Source: an uncultured Bacteroidota bacterium (GTDB lineage Bacteria; Bacteroidota; Bacteroidia; Flavobacteriales; Flavobacteriaceae). Taken from it: a stretch of DNA of 40,615 bases. The DNA is taken from NCBI GenBank assembly GCA_902517895.1, contig CABYEA010000002.1:73685-114299 (forward strand). The letters are read 5' to 3'. The position numbers and the translations under genes are program-made. Below, piece by piece: positions 10,539 through 17,308 of this stretch. The notes below the pieces were generated by a model. That model was not told the DNA's origin. It saw only the letters and a list, made by a program, of their open reading frames with translations, and made no database searches. Position 1 is the stretch's first letter, and every line of letters begins with the position of its first letter.

Positions 10539-11834
10539 TTAGTCTAAATACATTTTGTAGGTATCTAAACATCTTTGTCTGGCAACTTTGTGATCAACAA
10601 TCTCACCTGGGTAAGATTTAGAATCAGTATTTACCCACTTATTAATGTACTCCCTACTATTATCAAATTTTATAATTTGAGTATGAGGATTGAAGATTCT
10701 GAAGTAAGGTGCTGCGTCAACCCCTGATCCACTTGCCCACTGCCAATTACCAACGTTACTAGCCATTTCATAGTCATTAAGTTTTAGAGCAAAATATTTT
10801 TCTCCTAATCTCCAATCAATTAATAGATGTTTACATAAAAAGCTTGCAGTAATCATTCTAACTCTGTTGTGCATAAAACCAGTGTTATTAAGTTCTTTCA
10901 TGCCTGCGTCAACTAAGGGGAAACCAGTTTCTCCATTTTTCCATGCTTTAAATGATTTAGGATCATTTGACCATATAATTTTATCATATTTTGACTTGAA
11001 ACTTTTTTTCGCAGTATGAGGAAAATGAAACAGTATTTGCATAAAAAACTCTCTCCAAATAAGTTCATTTAAAAATGTTTGATCTTTAAAATTTATTAAC
11101 CCAGAAACAATTTTTCTTATACTAACTGTTCCAAATCTTAGATAAGGACCAAGTTTTGATGTTGAATTAATCGAAGGAAAGTTTCTTGTATCAGCATATT
11201 TTGTAACTATATCCTTGTTTAATTTGAAGACTTCTATTTTTTTATCATTTTCGATAAAACCATATTCCTTTAATTTCATTAGACCAGAAATGGAAGAGTT
11301 GTAAAAATTATTTATAATCTCCTTTTCAGCAAGTTTTGAAAGATCTTCATTCAAATTTGATTTCCATTTATTCATATATGGTGTATAAACAACATATGGA
11401 TTACCATCATCTTTTACAACTTCATTTTTTTCGAAGATTACCTGATCCTTAAAGGATTTAAATTCAATTTGATTCTTTTTTAATAAATTCTTAATCGATC
11501 TGTCTCTTGAAATGGCATATGGTTCGTAGTCGTTATTTGTAAAAACAGAATTTATTTTATAACCCCTGATTAACTTCTTGAAAATTTCTTTAGGATTCCC
11601 TTTAAATACATTAATTGAGGAATTAAATTTCTTTTTTAATTCTAAATCAATTTTTACTAAGTTGTCGAATATAAAGTTTATTCTCCTATCATTATTGGGC
11701 AGTTTATCGGTTATTGAAGTGTCAAAAATAAATAATGGTATGACTTTAATTTTGGAATGCGTTGCTGCAGATAATCCTGAATTATCATATAATCTTAAAT
11801 CTCTTCTGAACCAAAAAATACTGACCTCTTCCAT
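10539..11834 (-). CDS. phr: Class I deoxyribodipyrimidine (CPD) photolyase
   Basis: A 431-residue FAD protein of the photolyase/cryptochrome family, which uses blue light to split UV-induced pyrimidine dimers. The N-terminal antenna domain starts SIFWFRRDLRLYDNSGL. The FAD domain has LGPYLRFGTVSIRKI (about 220), LNELIWREFFMQILFHFP, WKNGETGFPLVDAGMKEL, TGFMHNRVRMITASFL, and the DYEMASNVGNWQWASGSGVDAAPYFRIFNP signature, all as in class I CPD photolyases. It is somewhat shorter than the 470-residue E. coli enzyme. Its ATG overlaps the SRPBCC stop (TAATG). It is the last or next-to-last gene of the photoprotection run. A cryptochrome role is possible but the motifs favour repair. Confidence 0.95.
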   Translation of the reverse strand: MEEVSIFWFRRDLRLYDNSGLSAATHSKIKVIPLFIFDTSITDKLPNNDRRINFIFDNLVKIDLELKKKFNSSINVFKGNPKEIFKKLIRGYKINSVFTNNDYEPYAISRDRSIKNLLKKNQIEFKSFKDQVIFEKNEVVKDDGNPYVVYTPYMNKWKSNLNEDLSKLAEKEIINNFYNSSISGLMKLKEYGFIENDKKIEVFKLNKDIVTKYADTRNFPSINSTSKLGPYLRFGTVSIRKIVSGLINFKDQTFLNELIWREFFMQILFHFPHTAKKSFKSKYDKIIWSNDPKSFKAWKNGETGFPLVDAGMKELNNTGFMHNRVRMITASFLCKHLLIDWRLGEKYFALKLNDYEMASNVGNWQWASGSGVDAAPYFRIFNPHTQIIKFDNSREYINKWVNTDSKSYPGEIVDHKVARQRCLDTYKMYLD

Positions 11835-12295
11835 TATAATTTACCGAAGATTTCCACCAACTTTTTTTCTCTGTAGTTAAAAATTTCATTCAACTTTGGT
11901 TTGATAATGAAAGGATGAAAAAACAATCCTATAAACCCAAAAGGTAGTACATAATCTAAAATATCAATTACTTTAACCCCACCATCTATTACTTCAAATT
12001 TATGTTTATGATGCCAAAAATTATATGGACCAAACCTTTGCTCATCAACAAAAAATTTATATTCTTTTACATGAGAAATTTCTGTTACCCATTTCATGTT
12101 TATTCCAAAAATTGGAGTTACATTGTATTTGATAATCTGACCTGAATACATTTTTGTATTTTCTTCATCAATTATATTAAACCCCATGTAGTCTGGGGTA
12201 ATTATTTTGAGATTTTTTGGACAAGAAAAGAATTCCCAGCAATCTTCAATTGTAATTGGCAAATTGATGGATTTTTCTAATCTAAAAATTTTCAT
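11834..12295 (-). CDS. SRPBCC family ligand-binding protein
   Basis: A 153-residue SRPBCC (START/Bet v1 fold) protein of the kind often found next to photolyase genes. It begins KIFRLEKSINLPITIEDCWEFFSCPKNLKIITP, the usual first strand and helix pair, followed by SGQIIKYNVTPIFGINMKWVTEI and the RFGPYNFWHHKHKFEV segment, and ends with a C-terminal helix containing FNYREKKLVEIFG. No signal peptide. The bound ligand is unknown. The ATG overlaps the upstream GPx stop by 4 bp (ATGA), and its stop overlaps the photolyase ATG (TAATG), so synthesis with both is probably coupled. Confidence 0.88.
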   Translation of the reverse strand: MKIFRLEKSINLPITIEDCWEFFSCPKNLKIITPDYMGFNIIDEENTKMYSGQIIKYNVTPIFGINMKWVTEISHVKEYKFFVDEQRFGPYNFWHHKHKFEVIDGGVKVIDILDYVLPFGFIGLFFHPFIIKPKLNEIFNYREKKLVEIFGKL

Positions 12296-12849
12296 TTAAT
12301 GTAATTGGTAATTTTAGAACTCATAGGACTCGTTAAAGAGTACCAGTAGTCGATCAAATTCCCTTCACTATCAACTAGATATTTTTGAAAATTCCACTTT
12401 ACACTGGAATCTTTTCTGCCATTTAACTCCTTTGATGTTAGCCATTCATAAAGAAGATGTTTATTTGAGCCTCTAACACGTATCTTTTCAGTCATCGGAA
12501 AAGAAACATTATATTTCTGTGAACAAAATATTGAAATTTGATCTTCGTTTCCTGGTTCTTGAGCACCGAATTGGTTACATGGTATTCCAATTACTACTAA
12601 TTTATCTGAGTTTTGATCATAGAGGTTTTGGAGGTCTTTATATTGTCTGGTAAATCCGCAATTTGATGCAACGTTTACAAACAGCATATACTTGCCCTTG
12701 TAATCACTAAGTGATATTTCAGTTCCTTGAATATTATTAATAGAGATATCATAAATGGACATAGGCGTTTTTTTTGATTTTTTTTCGTTGAAATCACTAT
12801 TTATTAGTGAAAACATAATAAATAATAATATTTTACTAATCTTTATCAT
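12292..12849 (-). CDS. Glutathione peroxidase-family thiol peroxidase
   Basis: A 185-residue GPx-fold peroxidase that reduces H2O2 or lipid hydroperoxides. The peroxidatic Cys64 lies in VNVASNCGFTRQY (Cys, not selenocysteine); Cys91 and Gln98 lie in GIPCNQFGAQEPGNEDQI; and the WNFQKYLVD motif holds the conserved Trp and Asn. Residues 1-19 are hydrophobic and may be a signal anchor, suggesting export, although a signal-peptidase site is unclear. Bacterial non-seleno GPx enzymes usually take electrons from thioredoxin, which fits a cell that makes bacillithiol (bshB1 at 25.7 kb). It lies 5 bp after the SDR gene in the photoprotection run. Confidence 0.94.
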   Translation of the reverse strand: MIKISKILLFIMFSLINSDFNEKKSKKTPMSIYDISINNIQGTEISLSDYKGKYMLFVNVASNCGFTRQYKDLQNLYDQNSDKLVVIGIPCNQFGAQEPGNEDQISIFCSQKYNVSFPMTEKIRVRGSNKHLLYEWLTSKELNGRKDSSVKWNFQKYLVDSEGNLIDYWYSLTSPMSSKITNYIK

Positions 12850-12854
12850 AACTA

Positions 12855-13538
12855 TCAGCTTTTAAATGTTACTATTCCCGCATCCATATTAAAAATTTGG
12901 CCGGAAATTGATGATGCATGTTCAGATGTAAGAAAAGAAGCCATTTTTGCAACCTCTTTTGATGATAGAATTTTTTTGAGTGGATGCCTTTCTACTATGT
13001 TTTCAACAATCTTTTCGTTTCTTAATATTTTTGAGGCGAGATCGGTATTTGTGATAGTTGGTGCAATTGCATTAATCCTGACATTTGGAGCTAATTCAGA
13101 ACCTAATGTTTTGACAAGTCCATCCACACCTGACTTTGCCACAGAAACAGAAGCATGATAAGGCATTCCGAGTTTTGTAGCCACTGTACTAAATAATAAT
13201 ATTGATGCTGAAGCAGATTTTTTAAGTAATGGTAAATACTTTTTTATTGCCCTAATCGCTCCTATAACATTTATTTCAAAATCGTTCTTGAAATCTTCAA
13301 TGGATAAAGTTGATATGGGTTTTAAATTGATGCTTCCTGGACAATAAATTAAGCAATCTAAATCATTCGCTTCTGGGTATTCATCAGTTAATGCATCAAA
13401 TACGTAATGTTTATAGTTTTTGTGTTCAAAATCAGTTTTATTTCTACTAAGACAAATTATTTTATTCTGACCCACAAGATCTTCTACTATTGATTTTCCA
13501 ATTCCTTTAGTACCACCAATTACAATTATATTTTTCAT
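12855..13538 (-). CDS. Atypical short-chain dehydrogenase/reductase lacking the YxxxK Tyr
   Basis: A 227-residue SDR. The nucleotide-binding GGTKGIG is at residues 8-14, the NNAG-like site is replaced by YCPGSI (65-70), and Asn90 is in FEINVIGAI. The catalytic region reads LLFSTVATKLGMPYHASVSVAKSGVDG. Ser117 and Lys135 line up, but the position four before the Lys is Val131, not Tyr; the only nearby Tyr is Tyr127, eight before the Lys. The C-terminal APTITNTDLA and GQIFNMDAGI segments are typical. Activity therefore needs a non-canonical Tyr, or the protein is a non-catalytic NAD(P)-binding relative. The ATG overlaps the stop of the 78-residue gene upstream (TAATG). Confidence 0.87.
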   Translation of the reverse strand: MKNIIVIGGTKGIGKSIVEDLVGQNKIICLSRNKTDFEHKNYKHYVFDALTDEYPEANDLDCLIYCPGSINLKPISTLSIEDFKNDFEINVIGAIRAIKKYLPLLKKSASASILLFSTVATKLGMPYHASVSVAKSGVDGLVKTLGSELAPNVRINAIAPTITNTDLASKILRNEKIVENIVERHPLKKILSSKEVAKMASFLTSEHASSISGQIFNMDAGIVTFKS

Positions 13539-13774
13539 TATGCGTTAGGTCTTCCTTTAAGTCTCTTTTCTACTTTCCTTTTGATAATAGTAAGCCTCTT
13601 CATAATATCCATTATTTCAGAATCTTTATTTTCTTTGTAAACTTCATTTAACTCAAGAATTAAATTTTTTACTTCTCTGGAGGCAACTATTTTTTCGTTT
13701 GTACTTTTGTAAACATGCTTTCTTTTTTCAAACTCTAATGCCCTGTCAATTATTTCAGTATCTTTTACTTCCAT
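13538..13774 (-). CDS. Small charged hypothetical protein (78 aa)
   Basis: No family is recognised. The 78-residue product is helical-looking and highly charged (rich in Lys, Glu and Arg), without a signal peptide or membrane segment; the pattern EVKNLILELNEVYKEN near 34-49 and IMDIMKRLTIIKRKVEKRLKGRP near 54-76 suggests a short helical hairpin or coiled coil. Its ATG lies inside the end of the DUF2805 gene (20-bp overlap, different frame), and its TAA overlaps the SDR start codon, so it is held tightly between the two. The embedded position suggests a partner of DUF2805 or the SDR; this is inference. It has an intact frame and is probably real. Confidence 0.7.
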   Translation of the reverse strand: MEVKDTEIIDRALEFEKRKHVYKSTNEKIVASREVKNLILELNEVYKENKDSEIMDIMKRLTIIKRKVEKRLKGRPNA

Positions 13775-14048
13775 TTTTCTTAGTTATTTTGTTTTGATTT
13801 ATGTTTCCTTGTCTAGAGCACTTAAACCTTCCAAGTTGGAAATTTCTCTTGGCCAAATGTTTCGTTTTTCTTCCACTAACTCTTTTTCGCCAATGTCTAA
13901 AACTTGAAGGTCTCAGGTTTCGCCTCATTAAAATGATAACCTCAGACTCAGTTAAACCAAATGTTTTTAAAATAGCATCAAAAGTTGTTCTGTCTTCCCA
14001 TGCCATTTGAATGATTCTATCAATATCTATGCCATTTAAATTTTTCAA
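13755..14048 (-). CDS. DUF2805 / TIGR03643 family protein, TTG start
   Basis: A 97-residue member of the DUF2805 (TIGR03643) family, small proteins of unknown function often found near photolyase or cryptochrome genes. The family core IDRIIQMAWEDRTTFDAILKTFGLTESEVIILMRRNLRPSSFRHWRKRVSGRKTKH is complete; it resembles a helix-turn-helix followed by a basic arginine-rich segment, consistent with nucleic acid binding (inference). The start is TTG at 14048, because no ATG precedes the conserved helix. The last 35 residues are basic and low in complexity (KRNFQLGRFKCSRQGNINQN). It begins 1 bp after the stop of the 140-residue gene and overlaps the next gene by 20 bp. Confidence 0.86.
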   Translation of the reverse strand: MKNLNGIDIDRIIQMAWEDRTTFDAILKTFGLTESEVIILMRRNLRPSSFRHWRKRVSGRKTKHLAKRNFQLGRFKCSRQGNINQNKITKKNGSKRY

Positions 14049-14049
14049 T

Positions 14050-14472
14050 TTATATCTGATTACTGTGTTTATTAAAGTTGAATTTATGTTCGAGTAGTTT
14101 TTTAAAGAAAACCAAATTTTCTTTGTGGTTTAATTTATTACTGTATCTAATAAAAGTTCCTTCTGAGTGAATGGAAAAAGAGGGTGTTTTATAGATGACT
14201 AATTTATAAAATGGAATTACCCATGTATACCTTTTTTGTCTATCTACTATGTAGACAATAATACCCTTATTTCTTAGCTCGATATTTGAATATATGATAT
14301 CACTTTTCTGTTTGATCAGATCCTTGAGCTTAGAACCTAATTCGTCGACGATTAGTCTCTTAGATCCAATTCCTCCTAGTCTTATAGATTTTAACAGATT
14401 ATATTTTTTCCCCACAAGGCTATTGGCTTCAATTTCTTTTTCTAGATCATTATATGTCGAATTATATATCAT
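14050..14472 (-). CDS. Hypothetical protein in the photoprotection run (140 aa)
   Basis: Not recognised. The 140 residues show an N-terminal helical half (YNDLEKEIEANSLVGKKYNLL, then SKLKDLIKQ) and a beta-rich half with alternating hydrophobics (IELRNKGIIVYIVDR, YTWVIPFYKLVIYKTPSFSIHSEGTFIRY), recalling a small beta-barrel or PH-like fold, followed by a basic tail. There is no signal peptide or clear membrane segment. Its ATG overlaps the stop of the PhrB-like photolyase by 4 bp (ATGA), and DUF2805 follows after 1 bp, so it is translated with both. It could be an accessory factor of the photolyase-like protein; this is inference from position only. Confidence 0.72.
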   Translation of the reverse strand: MIYNSTYNDLEKEIEANSLVGKKYNLLKSIRLGGIGSKRLIVDELGSKLKDLIKQKSDIIYSNIELRNKGIIVYIVDRQKRYTWVIPFYKLVIYKTPSFSIHSEGTFIRYSNKLNHKENLVFFKKLLEHKFNFNKHSNQI

Positions 14473-15944
14473 TTTAGTTTTGATAAAAATGTTTCAGAAA
14501 TTTCAAGATGGTTTTCAAGTTTTTCCTTATTCATTTTCCCTAATGTCCTTATCATCATGGATAGTCTGGGATTAGATTTAAAAAAAGATTGATTTTTATA
14601 TATAAACCTCCAATATAGACCATCCCATATTTTTTGCCAATCTCCCTTATTGTAGTTGCTCATTTTCATTATGTAATTACTGCTACTTATGTATGGTTTT
14701 GTTGACATTAATCCACCATCAGCGAATTGACTCATACCGTAGACATTAGGTACCATTACCCAATCATATGAATCAATAAACAACTCCATAAACCATTTAT
14801 ATACTTCATCGGGATTAATTTCACACAAAAACATAAAATTCCCAACAACCATTAGTCTTTCAATATGATGTAAGTAAGCATGTTTATTGAGTTTATTAAT
14901 ACAGTCATCAACAGGTTCAATATTGGTGGTAGCTGAGTAAAAGGATTCAGGCATTTTTTTGGTAAATCCCCAATAGTTTTTTGTTCTTTCAATACTTCCC
15001 TTGGTGATATAAACTCCCCTAATAAACTCCCTCCAACCGATAATTTGTCTAATGATGCCTTCGTAAGAGTTAATAGGTATATTTTTTTTGGATGCAAATT
15101 CGTTCAATTCATTGATTACAAATGACGGGGTTAATAATCCACAGTTTATAAGTGGAGAAAGAAGACTGTGGTTTAATATTGATTCATGCTGAACAATAGC
15201 ATCTTCATAATCTCCAAATTCAAGGAATCTTTGTTCTAAAAAATCGTTTAACCAGTTTTTAGCATCTAGAAAGTCTGTTGGATATTTTATTTCTGATTCA
15301 AGTTTCCCGAAATTATTCGCATAATTAGATTCTACATAAAATTTTGCTTCTTTGTGTAAATCAGAATCTTCTTTTGGGTATTTAATTGATGGTGGTATTT
15401 TATTTTTAGGATATTTTTTTCTGTTTTCATCGTCGTATGTCCATTTACCTCCTTCAGGATTATTATCATCCATCAAAATATCCATTTTTTTTCTTTGTAG
15501 CTTATAAAAGCTAGTTTGAAAATATTTTTTTTTATCTGGATTAAAAAAAGTTAAATTCTCCTCGGCGGAATTTAAAAATTGTGGAGATTCTATACAATTG
15601 AAAACTATCGAGTCATTTACACGCTTCATTCTTTTATTAATCCAGTAATCACATGGATCTATATAATTAATCTTATTTATCTCTTGGGTAATAAGTAAGT
15701 CTAATAAAACTCTAATGTCAGAATTTTTGTCTGTGGAATCTATGTATTCAATTTCATCAATATAATTTTTACAATAATCAGCATATTTTTTCATGCTAAC
15801 TCGATGAAAGAAAATCTTTTTTTTGTGAAATTTATAATGTCTAAAAAAAAGATATTCCTCAATTATAAATGTTTTAACATTATTTTTGAACAATGGGGAT
15901 TCTTCAAAAAGTTGATTAGGAAAAATTAAGTTTACCTCTTCCAA
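14469..15944 (-). CDS. PhrB-type photolyase/cryptochrome family protein lacking most iron-sulfur ligands
   Basis: A 491-residue member of the iron-sulfur bacterial cryptochrome/photolyase (FeS-BCP, PhrB or DPRP) group, whose known members repair (6-4) photoproducts or sense light. Matches include [15 protein letters not shown] at the N-terminus, [16 protein letters not shown] (295-310), [17 protein letters not shown] (354-370), and the [28 protein letters not shown] block (398-425). Of the four cluster cysteines known in Agrobacterium PhrB (350, 438, 441, 454), only the first has a counterpart, Cys348. The segment after KMSNY reads [16 protein letters not shown], with no cysteines. Flavin binding looks intact. 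The start is TTG at 15944, inside the DUF2256 gene (29-bp overlap); an upstream stop and absence of ATG support it. Confidence 0.9.
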
Positions 15945-16065
15945 TTTTACTACATTTCTTACTACAATAAATCACGTTTTCCCAGTCTCTTATCCACTTT
16001 TTTCTCCATTTAAAAGGAAAATTACATACTGGACATGTTTTTTCGGGTAAAAATGTTTTCTTCAA
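15916..16065 (-). CDS. DUF2256 zinc-finger-like microprotein (49 aa), TTG start
   Basis: A 49-residue reading frame matching DUF2256, small cysteine proteins typically encoded beside cryptochrome/photolyase genes. It starts [10 protein letters not shown], then [15 protein letters not shown] and [11 protein letters not shown]. The four cysteines (11, 14, 34, 38) in CxxC and CxxxC pairs could bind zinc, and the FKWRKKW core is the family hallmark. No ATG is available; the TTG at 16065 overlaps the flavin reductase stop as TTGA, and the 3' end overlaps the photolyase-like gene by 29 bp. The tail after Cys38 ([11 protein letters not shown]) has no visible family match. The fit to the family and the overlapped operon position make it a real gene despite its size. 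Confidence 0.88.
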
Positions 16066-16682
16066 CTTTTCTGGGGTGTCTGATATCCTTTTCTTGAATT
16101 TGATGTTGGAAACGAATAACCATCACAACCACTAATTGTTGCTACTTCCGCATCACTAAGATTAATAAACCCATCTTCAGAAATTAGATGATCCTCAATA
16201 TTTAATTCTACAATTTTACCCACAATTAATCTTGACTTATTATAATTAATTTTTATCTCCTCTACAAACTTCATTCCAATCTTTACAGAGGAGGATTTTA
16301 CGAATGGAGCAGGGAAATTGTTGATATACTCAGGTTCTATTTTTGTAATGTCAAATTCGGAAATCTCTCTGTCATACTTGGCCGATGTGTGGTGTGCCTT
16401 ATCAACGAATTTAAATTGCACAGAATTAATAGTATAATATGGGTTATGCTTGATATTTAAGTACGTGTGTCTTGGAACAATCTCAGTTGGTCTTAAAAAA
16501 AAACCTAATAAGGGTGGGTTAGAACCAAGATGCGTAATTGAACTGAATATTGCTAAATTATTAATACTGGTTTCCGATGAAGAGCCGATTAAATTTGCAG
16601 ATTTGTATCCAGAACATGAGTTAATCAGGTTAATTCTAAATACTTTTTCAAGGTTTTCAATATCCTCTTCACTGTAATGCAT
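16062..16682 (-). CDS. Flavin reductase-like FMN-binding protein
   Basis: A 206-residue protein of the flavin reductase (DIM6/NTAB, split-barrel FMN-binding) family. Typical segments are [45 protein letters not shown] (about 21-66), [28 protein letters not shown] and the [10 protein letters not shown] strand. It may supply reduced flavin or use FMN as cofactor; in a photolyase operon a flavin-supplying role is attractive but unproven. It is cytoplasmic. The ATG overlaps the aquaporin stop by 1 bp (TAATG), and its TGA overlaps the DUF2256 start. Confidence 0.86.
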
Positions 16683-17308
16683 TAACCGTATAGTTTTTTG
16701 TACAAATAAGATGCAACAACTGAACCAATTATTGCAGAAATTAAATAATATAAGAAGAAGTCGCTTGATGATACATTATTTCCGACTACTTGAGGATCAA
16801 TAAAACTGAAAAATGAAGGACCGAAACTAACAGCGGGATTAAATACGGCACCAGAAATGCCACCAACAGTAAATGCCCCAGCAGTAACTGTTAAGCCAAT
16901 GGCAAGTCCATAAAACTGATTTCCCTTAAGGTTTTTATTAAGCGCAACATTGAGAATAACAAAAACAAGCAAAAAAGTAAATAAAATTTCAGCTAAAAAA
17001 AAGCTAGAAATATCGCTTGTATTTGAAACAACATTAAAATCATCATTTCCAAGTAACACAACTAAGTATGCAGCAACGACAGAGCCTAAAAGTTGACTTG
17101 CGACATAAAACGAAAACTCCTTTAACTCAATTTGTTTATTTATTAACATTGAAAGGCTGACGGCAGGGTTGTAGTGCGCTCCAGAAATATGTGCACCCAT
17201 ATATACCAATACTGCCAGGCCAAGTCCAATAGCTATTGGGTTTTGGCTTAAACCAATGATTAATACAAGAAATAATGTTCCGAGAAATTCTATAATATAT
17301 TTATTCAT
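16682..17308 (-). CDS. Aquaporin/MIP-family channel with a non-canonical selectivity filter
   Basis: A 208-residue inner-membrane channel with six membrane segments and two half-helices ending in NPA motifs: HYNPAVSL (Asn47) and VFNPAVSFG (Asn157). The architecture is that of MIP channels. At the aromatic/arginine filter, the Arg that normally follows the second NPA is Val160, and the helix-5 His of AqpZ corresponds to Ala145; the helix-2 aromatic corresponds to Ile27. This makes a wide, apolar filter unlike a water-selective AqpZ. The cargo could be a small neutral solute, dissolved gas or peroxide; this is open. It is the first gene of the leftward photoprotection run. The 54 bp shared with the divergent DUF2911 gene show no housekeeping -7 box on its strand. 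Confidence 0.92.
   Translation of the reverse strand: MNKYIIEFLGTLFLVLIIGLSQNPIAIGLGLAVLVYMGAHISGAHYNPAVSLSMLINKQIELKEFSFYVASQLLGSVVAAYLVVLLGNDDFNVVSNTSDISSFFLAEILFTFLLVFVILNVALNKNLKGNQFYGLAIGLTVTAGAFTVGGISGAVFNPAVSFGPSFFSFIDPQVVGNNVSSSDFFLYYLISAIIGSVVASYLYKKLYG

Follow-up and report, generated by a model that had tools for sequence, protein, structure and literature searches.

A gene for a probable cluster-free prokaryotic (6-4) photolyase in an uncultured member of the Flavobacteriaceae

A photolyase gene in a same-strand gene run

The window, a 40,615-nucleotide stretch of DNA from an uncultured bacterium of the Flavobacteriaceae, contains a run whose main genes, from position 17308 down to 10539, share one strand. 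Genes for a MIP channel and a flavin reductase-like protein (16062..17308, minus strand; ORFs and Pfam) lead the run and lie upstream of the gene described here (14469..15944, minus strand). This is followed by a gene for a 140-aa protein (14050..14472, minus strand) that overlaps the photolyase stop and has no match in Pfam or NCBIfam, a DUF2805/TIGR03643 gene (13755..14048, minus strand; Pfam and NCBIfam), SDR, glutathione peroxidase and START-like genes (11834..13538, minus strand; ORFs, Pfam and neighbourhood counts), and a class I-like photolyase gene (10539..11834, minus strand). The last is recognized by PF00875 and PF03441, and its best NCBIfam matches, TIGR03556 and PRK10674, are both under cut-off. 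One protein of the 11834..13538 segment has no Pfam or NCBIfam match, and we take it to be START/SRPBCC-like. Judged by strand and spacing, the run may constitute a single operon.

The gene under study is a conserved 491-aa ORF with a TTG start, and Pfam, phmmer, AlphaFold2 and VIA-align all bear on its assignment. Pfam identifies the DPRP family (PF04244) at 9.2e-48, FAD_binding_7 (PF03441) scores 25.3 bits, just under its cut-off of 27, and no domain besides DPRP and the FAD-binding family was found in the whole 491 aa. The closest solved structures by phmmer are the PhrB chains 4dja and 5kcm (8.4e-74 to 4dja), so that the combination typical of prokaryotic (6-4) photolyases, a DPRP N-terminal domain with a PhrB-type FAD domain, is present. 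An AlphaFold2 model built from 56 sequences (mean pLDDT 91.5) aligns with 4dja in VIA-align 2 with a Z of 45.8 and an rmsd of 2.2 Angstrom over 483 residues, and identity to PhrB of Agrobacterium over this structural alignment is 30%. The alignment extends from residue 2 to 491, which suggests that the roof-like region is kept in the modelled protein. An earlier note on this DNA had described a 491-residue protein on a PhrB scaffold, citing the blocks [12 protein letters not shown] and GMSQFADGG, and had proposed that its structure be modelled; both blocks are present, and the ORF, the PF04244 match, the nearest structures and the model, with a PhrB fold over its whole length, bear this description out.

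Within its own genome (1.26 Mb, 68% completeness) the window protein is the sole match of its kind. Full-length copies at 64-90% identity are present in 15 of the 20 other genomes of the genus, with no internal stops among the matches listed. The small genome, and the five same-genus genomes with no full-length match, could be taken to indicate a decaying, non-functional copy, but those five genomes are merely 56-81% complete, and dN/dS is 0.08-0.16 in four genus pairs, showing that the protein is under selection. Decay is thus exceedingly improbable, and a pseudogene was rejected on the dN/dS values.

All four cluster-ligand columns lack cysteine

Members of the FeS-BCP group are defined by four cysteines that bind a [4Fe-4S] cluster, and the earlier note had proposed that the window protein has lost three of these and retained one, with Cys348 matching PhrB Cys350. 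Opposite Cys350, phmmer alignments with chains of PhrB, CryB and the V. cholerae enzyme place Pro344 (codon 14913..14915, minus strand), as does an alignment of 206 homologues made with MAFFT; Cys348 (codon 14901..14903, minus strand) follows four residues further on and lies opposite PhrB Val354. At the other three ligand columns the window protein has gaps (438 and 441) and Lys438 (454), and the segment [16 protein letters not shown], reported earlier as cysteine-free, is indeed present and without cysteine. By these alignments all four of the PhrB [4Fe-4S] ligands are absent, including the one that had been thought to remain.

The pattern is sharply divided among the relatives. In the MAFFT alignment 73 of 206 proteins have cysteine in all four ligand columns, 133 have none, and there are no intermediates; the set is non-random, as 80 of its members are the best 80 of at least 581 confirmed relatives recovered with a cluster-free alignment as query, and one short, different photolyase-like protein (L030) was excluded. 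With five plasmid sequences added, the totals become 134 cluster-free and 77 four-cysteine proteins. The Cys348 column holds cysteine in 19 of the 133 cluster-free and 21 of the 73 four-cysteine proteins and is thus variable in both types, so Cys348 is not a relic ligand. Twenty-four relatives of the window protein with 50-90% identity also have no ligand cysteines, and the pattern therefore reflects neither chance nor assembly error; four more distant relatives (35-38% identity) have all four.

The window protein has six cysteines (58, 98, 117, 268, 348 and 374), and these could in principle supply a [4Fe-4S] or other cluster through a different set of ligands. However, Cys374 (Cys in 130 of 134) is the sole one of these to be conserved in a majority of the cluster-free proteins, and one cysteine cannot hold a four-cysteine cluster; the former ligand loop is also shorter by ten residues and is predicted to be helical. 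We consider a cluster bound in this manner extremely unlikely, and a substitute cysteine site was rejected on the conservation of Cys374 alone. The column of Cys374 (14823-14825) is Thr or Ala in 64 of the 77 four-cysteine proteins.

What stands in place of the ligand loop

The region corresponding to the Cys438/Cys441/Cys454 loop of PhrB is a shortened segment at residues 428-445 (14610..14663, minus strand), as indicated by the alignment, the AlphaFold2 model and the tree set. The stretch from Met428 to Trp445 comprises 16 residues in 133 of 134 cluster-free proteins versus 26 in 75 of 77 four-cysteine proteins, and contains conserved residues of its own: Trp436 and Trp440 are each present in 132 of 133 cluster-free proteins and Asp441 in all 133. 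The column of Cys350 is likewise not simply vacant, being Pro in 131 of 133 (132 of 134 with the plasmid sequences). The AlphaFold2 model has a helix over residues 435-450.

In PhrB, the C350S, C438S and C441S mutants are insoluble or unexpressed (PMC4619345; this and the other papers are cited from the portions of their text available to us), and a compensated scaffold is therefore expected in cluster-free forms. A plausible form of compensation is that the ligand loop, shortened by ten residues, has become a helix carrying Trp436, Trp440 and Asp441 while Cys350 has been replaced by Pro, and that the roof-like subdomain, which depends on the cluster in PhrB, would be held by protein packing instead. 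Trp436 and Trp440 may fill the cluster cavity.

The antenna pocket is remodelled

The six most conserved residues of the pocket for the antenna chromophore DMRL are Leu8, Gly9, Asp10, Glu33, Lys47 and Met55, and a Glu37-Arg108 salt bridge favours DMRL (PMC9178010). The columns of Glu33, Lys47 and Met55 are kept in 134, 133 and 131 of the 134 cluster-free proteins, respectively, the window protein included. The remainder of the pocket has changed in most or all of the cluster-free set, with Leu8 replaced by Phe (131 of 134), Gly9 by Pro (all 134), Asp10 by His or Asn (all 134), Glu37 by Phe or Tyr (all 134), and Arg108 by Trp in 100 of 134, again including the window protein. In the latter, the remodelled pocket spans residues 8-51 (15792..15923, minus strand), with Phe8, Pro9, Asn10 and Phe33 aligned to PhrB Leu8, Gly9, Asp10 and Glu37. 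Because Leu8, Gly9, Asp10, Glu37 and Arg108 are all changed, DMRL is a doubtful antenna for the cluster-free type. The window protein thus lacks the DMRL pocket of the FeS-BCP enzymes, a feature that is not universal among them, as SePhrB binds 8-HDF.

Aromatic side chains in place of Glu37 are reminiscent of 8-HDF binders (PMC9178010), and cofH (TIGR03551) served as a marker for 8-HDF synthesis in 40 genomes, including that of the window. None of the 40 has a cofH match above the family cut-off; 23 have matches with E <= 0.001 (the same-genus genomes are 56-86% complete), and 3 of 14 control genomes pass the cut-off. Eight matches score 295-317 bits and come from four genomes of the same order; we presume these to be related menaquinone enzymes. 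An 8-HDF antenna for the window protein is not supported. The antennas of subgroup M, the published subgroup of these enzymes with no four cysteines, are said to need investigation (PMC9178010).

The two types are distributed as alternatives

A census of 296 Bacteroidota genomes, less biased than the 206-homologue set, yielded 100 genomes with one PF04244 match each (the window's genome included), of which 69 encode a four-cysteine and 31 a cluster-free protein. Both types were found together in none of the 296, against an expectation of 7.2 (Fisher p 2e-4, ignoring relatedness). With the ligand regions omitted from the alignment, the cluster-free proteins form one clade in an unrooted tree of 46 sampled sequences (SH-aLRT/UFBoot 100/100), separated by a long branch (split length 1.3). 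FastTree gives the same split a support of 1.0 in an unrooted tree of 211 sequences, also without the ligand regions; the value of 0.38 at the cluster-free node appears after re-rooting of this same tree. The published view is that a missing cluster reflects loss, and the trees here are unrooted.

A four-cysteine locus (L220) and a cluster-free locus from a Flavobacteriaceae MAG (L100) are co-linear, with the (6-4) enzymes in the same slot. Each of the 15 L220 ORFs has a counterpart in L100, with two short ones sharing a single counterpart, and the neighbours are 54.5-78.2% identical versus 35.5% for the (6-4) enzymes. Part of this block is also present at a second four-cysteine locus (L223). 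As far as the sequences indicate, this is the pattern that would be left by replacement of one enzyme with another that performs the same job. By Pfam, L100 includes a TetR-type regulator, an ABC1-type kinase, a DUF2867 protein, two further photolyase-type proteins and TspO; several of the 15 ORFs of the block are photolyase- or stress-related.

Gene neighbours were counted for 81 loci of the cluster-free type, of which 80 belong to genome_contigs and one to a plasmid, and for a subset of the four-cysteine loci (20 of 69, picked for belonging to the same family or class); since the two sets were sampled differently, their rates are not comparable. Near cluster-free genes, the counts are photolyase 63, DUF2805 43, flavin reductase 39, SDR 29, 140-aa protein 27, START-like 20, glutathione peroxidase 20 and MIP 4, with 239 of 245 neighbour homologues on the same strand as the gene, the 63 photolyase hits included. 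Near four-cysteine genes they are photolyase 12, flavin reductase 8, DUF2805 5, SDR 4, two each for the 140-aa protein, START-like and glutathione peroxidase, and MIP 0, all on the same strand. The photolyase query picks up several photolyase classes, and by comparison with the window's class I-like protein 51 of the 63 photolyase neighbours of cluster-free genes are less than 35% identical, one is at 35-40%, and 11 are at 40% or above; 9 of the 12 near four-cysteine genes are at 23.6-28.0% identity. A photolyase-type neighbour is common, but it is mostly a different photolyase.

One of the five plasmid sequences compared, out of 87 matching plasmid records, is cluster-free and comes from Persicobacter (Bacteroidota); 43 stretches of viral_contigs matched a pattern with none confirmed, and the search of phages gave no match. 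The cluster-free loci include, among the matches listed, records titled Dyadobacter sediminis, Haliscomenobacter hydrossis and an 'Erken' isolate. We take these three to be non-marine, which counts against a purely marine cause. Marine iron limitation has reportedly been suggested for PromaPL, a cluster-free enzyme said to carry out Mg2+-stimulated (6-4) repair (Ma et al. 2019, FEBS J 286:1765).

Repair residues are invariant and the electron chain is altered

The columns of PhrB Asp179, Asp254, His366, Leu370, Met410, Tyr424 and Tyr430 are invariant in all 134 cluster-free and all 77 four-cysteine proteins, and all seven of these residues linked to repair in prokaryotic (6-4) photolyases are identical in the window protein. 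His360 (14865..14867, minus strand) corresponds to the catalytic His366, and the segment from Tyr418 to Tyr424 (14673..14693, minus strand) to PhrB Tyr424, a lesion-binding residue, through Tyr430. In PhrB, repair is abolished by H366N and Y424F and lowered by Y430F and L370M; Met410 contacts His366, itself one of the few residues common to FeS-BCP and eukaryotic (6-4) enzymes (PMC4619345). Asp171 (15432..15434, minus strand) and Asp248 (15201..15203, minus strand) align with PhrB Asp179 and Asp254 and would form a Mg2+ site, as predicted for Asp178 and Asp253 of the Caulobacter enzyme (PMC12082625). At the neighbouring His365 position the window protein has His, and 15 of the 134 cluster-free proteins have Asn.

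The electron-transfer chain is less well conserved. Among the 134 cluster-free proteins Trp390 is kept in 133, Tyr391 is replaced by Phe in all 134 and Tyr395 by Phe in 109, and at the distal position (PhrB Trp342) 114 have Tyr and 20 have Trp. The window protein has Trp384, Phe385 and Phe389 at the medial and proximal positions (14778..14795, minus strand; by alignment to PhrB Trp390, Tyr391 and Tyr395) and Tyr336 at the distal one (14937..14939, minus strand). A Phe pair is known in Methanothermobacter (PMC12082625). With the distal Trp and the proximal Tyr pair substituted in the majority of members, photoreduction may differ in the cluster-free type. The Glu403 site of PhrB holds Met in all 134 (Met397 in the window). 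At the Tyr460 position, 105 of the 134 have Phe and 28, the window protein among them, have Tyr; among 464 FeS-BCP members Tyr460 is kept in 93%, and the other 7% also have no Cys ligands (PMC4619345).

We propose that FAD would be reduced via Trp384 and an aromatic relay ending at Tyr336 rather than at the usual Trp, and that reduced FAD would donate an electron to the (6-4) lesion, held in place by Tyr418 and close to Tyr424. His360 would act as the proton donor, presumably assisted by Mg2+ at Asp171 and Asp248. We infer (6-4) repair activity in a protein that would contain no iron, together with the electron path and tryptophan packing outlined above. On sequence, model and context, the gene quite probably encodes a cluster-free prokaryotic (6-4) photolyase, with repair as its predicted function.

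Two other functions have to be weighed against this. The cluster-free members could have switched substrate and repair CPDs rather than (6-4) lesions, as was proposed for picocyanobacterial Phr2 on the grounds that the cluster is missing (PMC9426592), and the deep separation of the clade (split length 1.3) is consistent with such a change. Yet the His366, Leu370, Met410, Tyr424 and Tyr430 columns are invariant, a class I-like photolyase is already encoded in the same run, and the two types were not found side by side in any of the 296 genomes searched and fill the same slot in a single pair of loci; we regard a CPD switch as unlikely. It is less likely still that the protein is a blue-light sensor, a cryptochrome without repair, as the earlier note had suggested. 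Rhodobacter CryB has the same scaffold and is reported to regulate gene expression (PMC9178010), and the related block in L100 includes the TetR-type regulator, but the residues for lesion binding, proton donation and predicted Mg2+ binding are all invariant, Pfam recognizes no additional domain in the protein, and the gene shares its same-strand run with a second photolyase. These features, together with the slot shared with a four-cysteine enzyme, argue against that suggestion, and the predicted role of the window protein is likely repair over sensing.

Relationship to described enzymes

Cluster-free prokaryotic (6-4) photolyases are not new and are already in print as PromaPL and subgroup M. 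The name 'prokaryotic 6-4 photolyases' has been proposed for the whole group, PromaPL being named as one without a cluster and subgroup M (20 of 110 sequences) as the sole subgroup without the four cysteines; a non-intact electron chain and the usual Met at Glu403 are also seen in subgroups Chl, HC and Ac (PMC9178010). The window protein shares with PromaPL and subgroup M the absence of the four ligand cysteines, the broken electron chain (Tyr336, Trp384, Phe385, Phe389) and Met397 at the Glu403 site, where the likeness is to the published description and our cluster-free proteins were gathered from searches and records of Bacteroidota. It most likely belongs to this already described kind and is not a new light sensor.

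Several orthologues miss the cluster cysteines (PMC12082625), as do most Phr2 proteins of marine picocyanobacteria (PMC9426592). V. cholerae Phr2 was also listed as without the cysteines (PMC9426592), which is contradicted by the V. cholerae structure paper (PMC9852545). The marine Synechococcus Phr2 proteins have a PhrB-like N domain, as the window protein does. Strain RS9916 presumably belongs to subcluster 5.1, whose strains have a cluster-free Phr2. Loss of phr2 in RS9916 lowers UV-B survival about 1,000-fold, and the gene gives nearly ten-fold, light-dependent UV-B protection in E. coli; the difference from our reading, in a comparison made by description, is that its authors guessed at CPD repair, which weighs against our reading (PMC9426592).

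PhrB of Agrobacterium (4DJA) is alike in its whole-length fold and in its catalytic His, lesion Tyr and Mg2+ Asp columns, and differs in having four Cys ligands, a ligand loop ten residues longer, a DMRL pocket with Asp10 and the Glu37-Arg108 pair, and the Trp342/Tyr391/Tyr395 chain. SePhrB of Synechococcus elongatus (8IJY) is a prokaryotic 6-4 photolyase with an antenna other than DMRL, as may also hold for the window protein; it differs in having a cluster and binding 8-HDF, and is 26% identical.

The role of the [4Fe-4S] cluster in prokaryotic (6-4) photolyases was called unclear in 2025 (PMC12082625). A cluster-free lineage that occupies the same slot as the cluster form provides matched pairs with which to ask whether the cluster is only structural, in keeping with the earlier proposal that a cluster-free protein on the PhrB scaffold would be a useful natural comparison. 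We suggest tentatively, as a reading that is less likely than not, that the [4Fe-4S] cluster and the DMRL antenna were both lost, with another antenna or none in its place, and that the enzyme was swapped in place within a conserved UV-repair block. If so, gene sets that otherwise match would accomplish one task either with the cluster or without it, and such pairs would reveal what the cluster contributes. The Pro/Trp/Asp replacement, the joint change in the antenna pocket and the in-place exchange are not mentioned in the available text of the literature searched, and no priority is claimed for them.

The window's own genome also encodes a third photolyase-like protein of 363 aa (L214:1057-2148, contig C17) with a match to the FAD-binding family. 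We suppose that it is perhaps of the reversed-domain, single-strand photolyase type.
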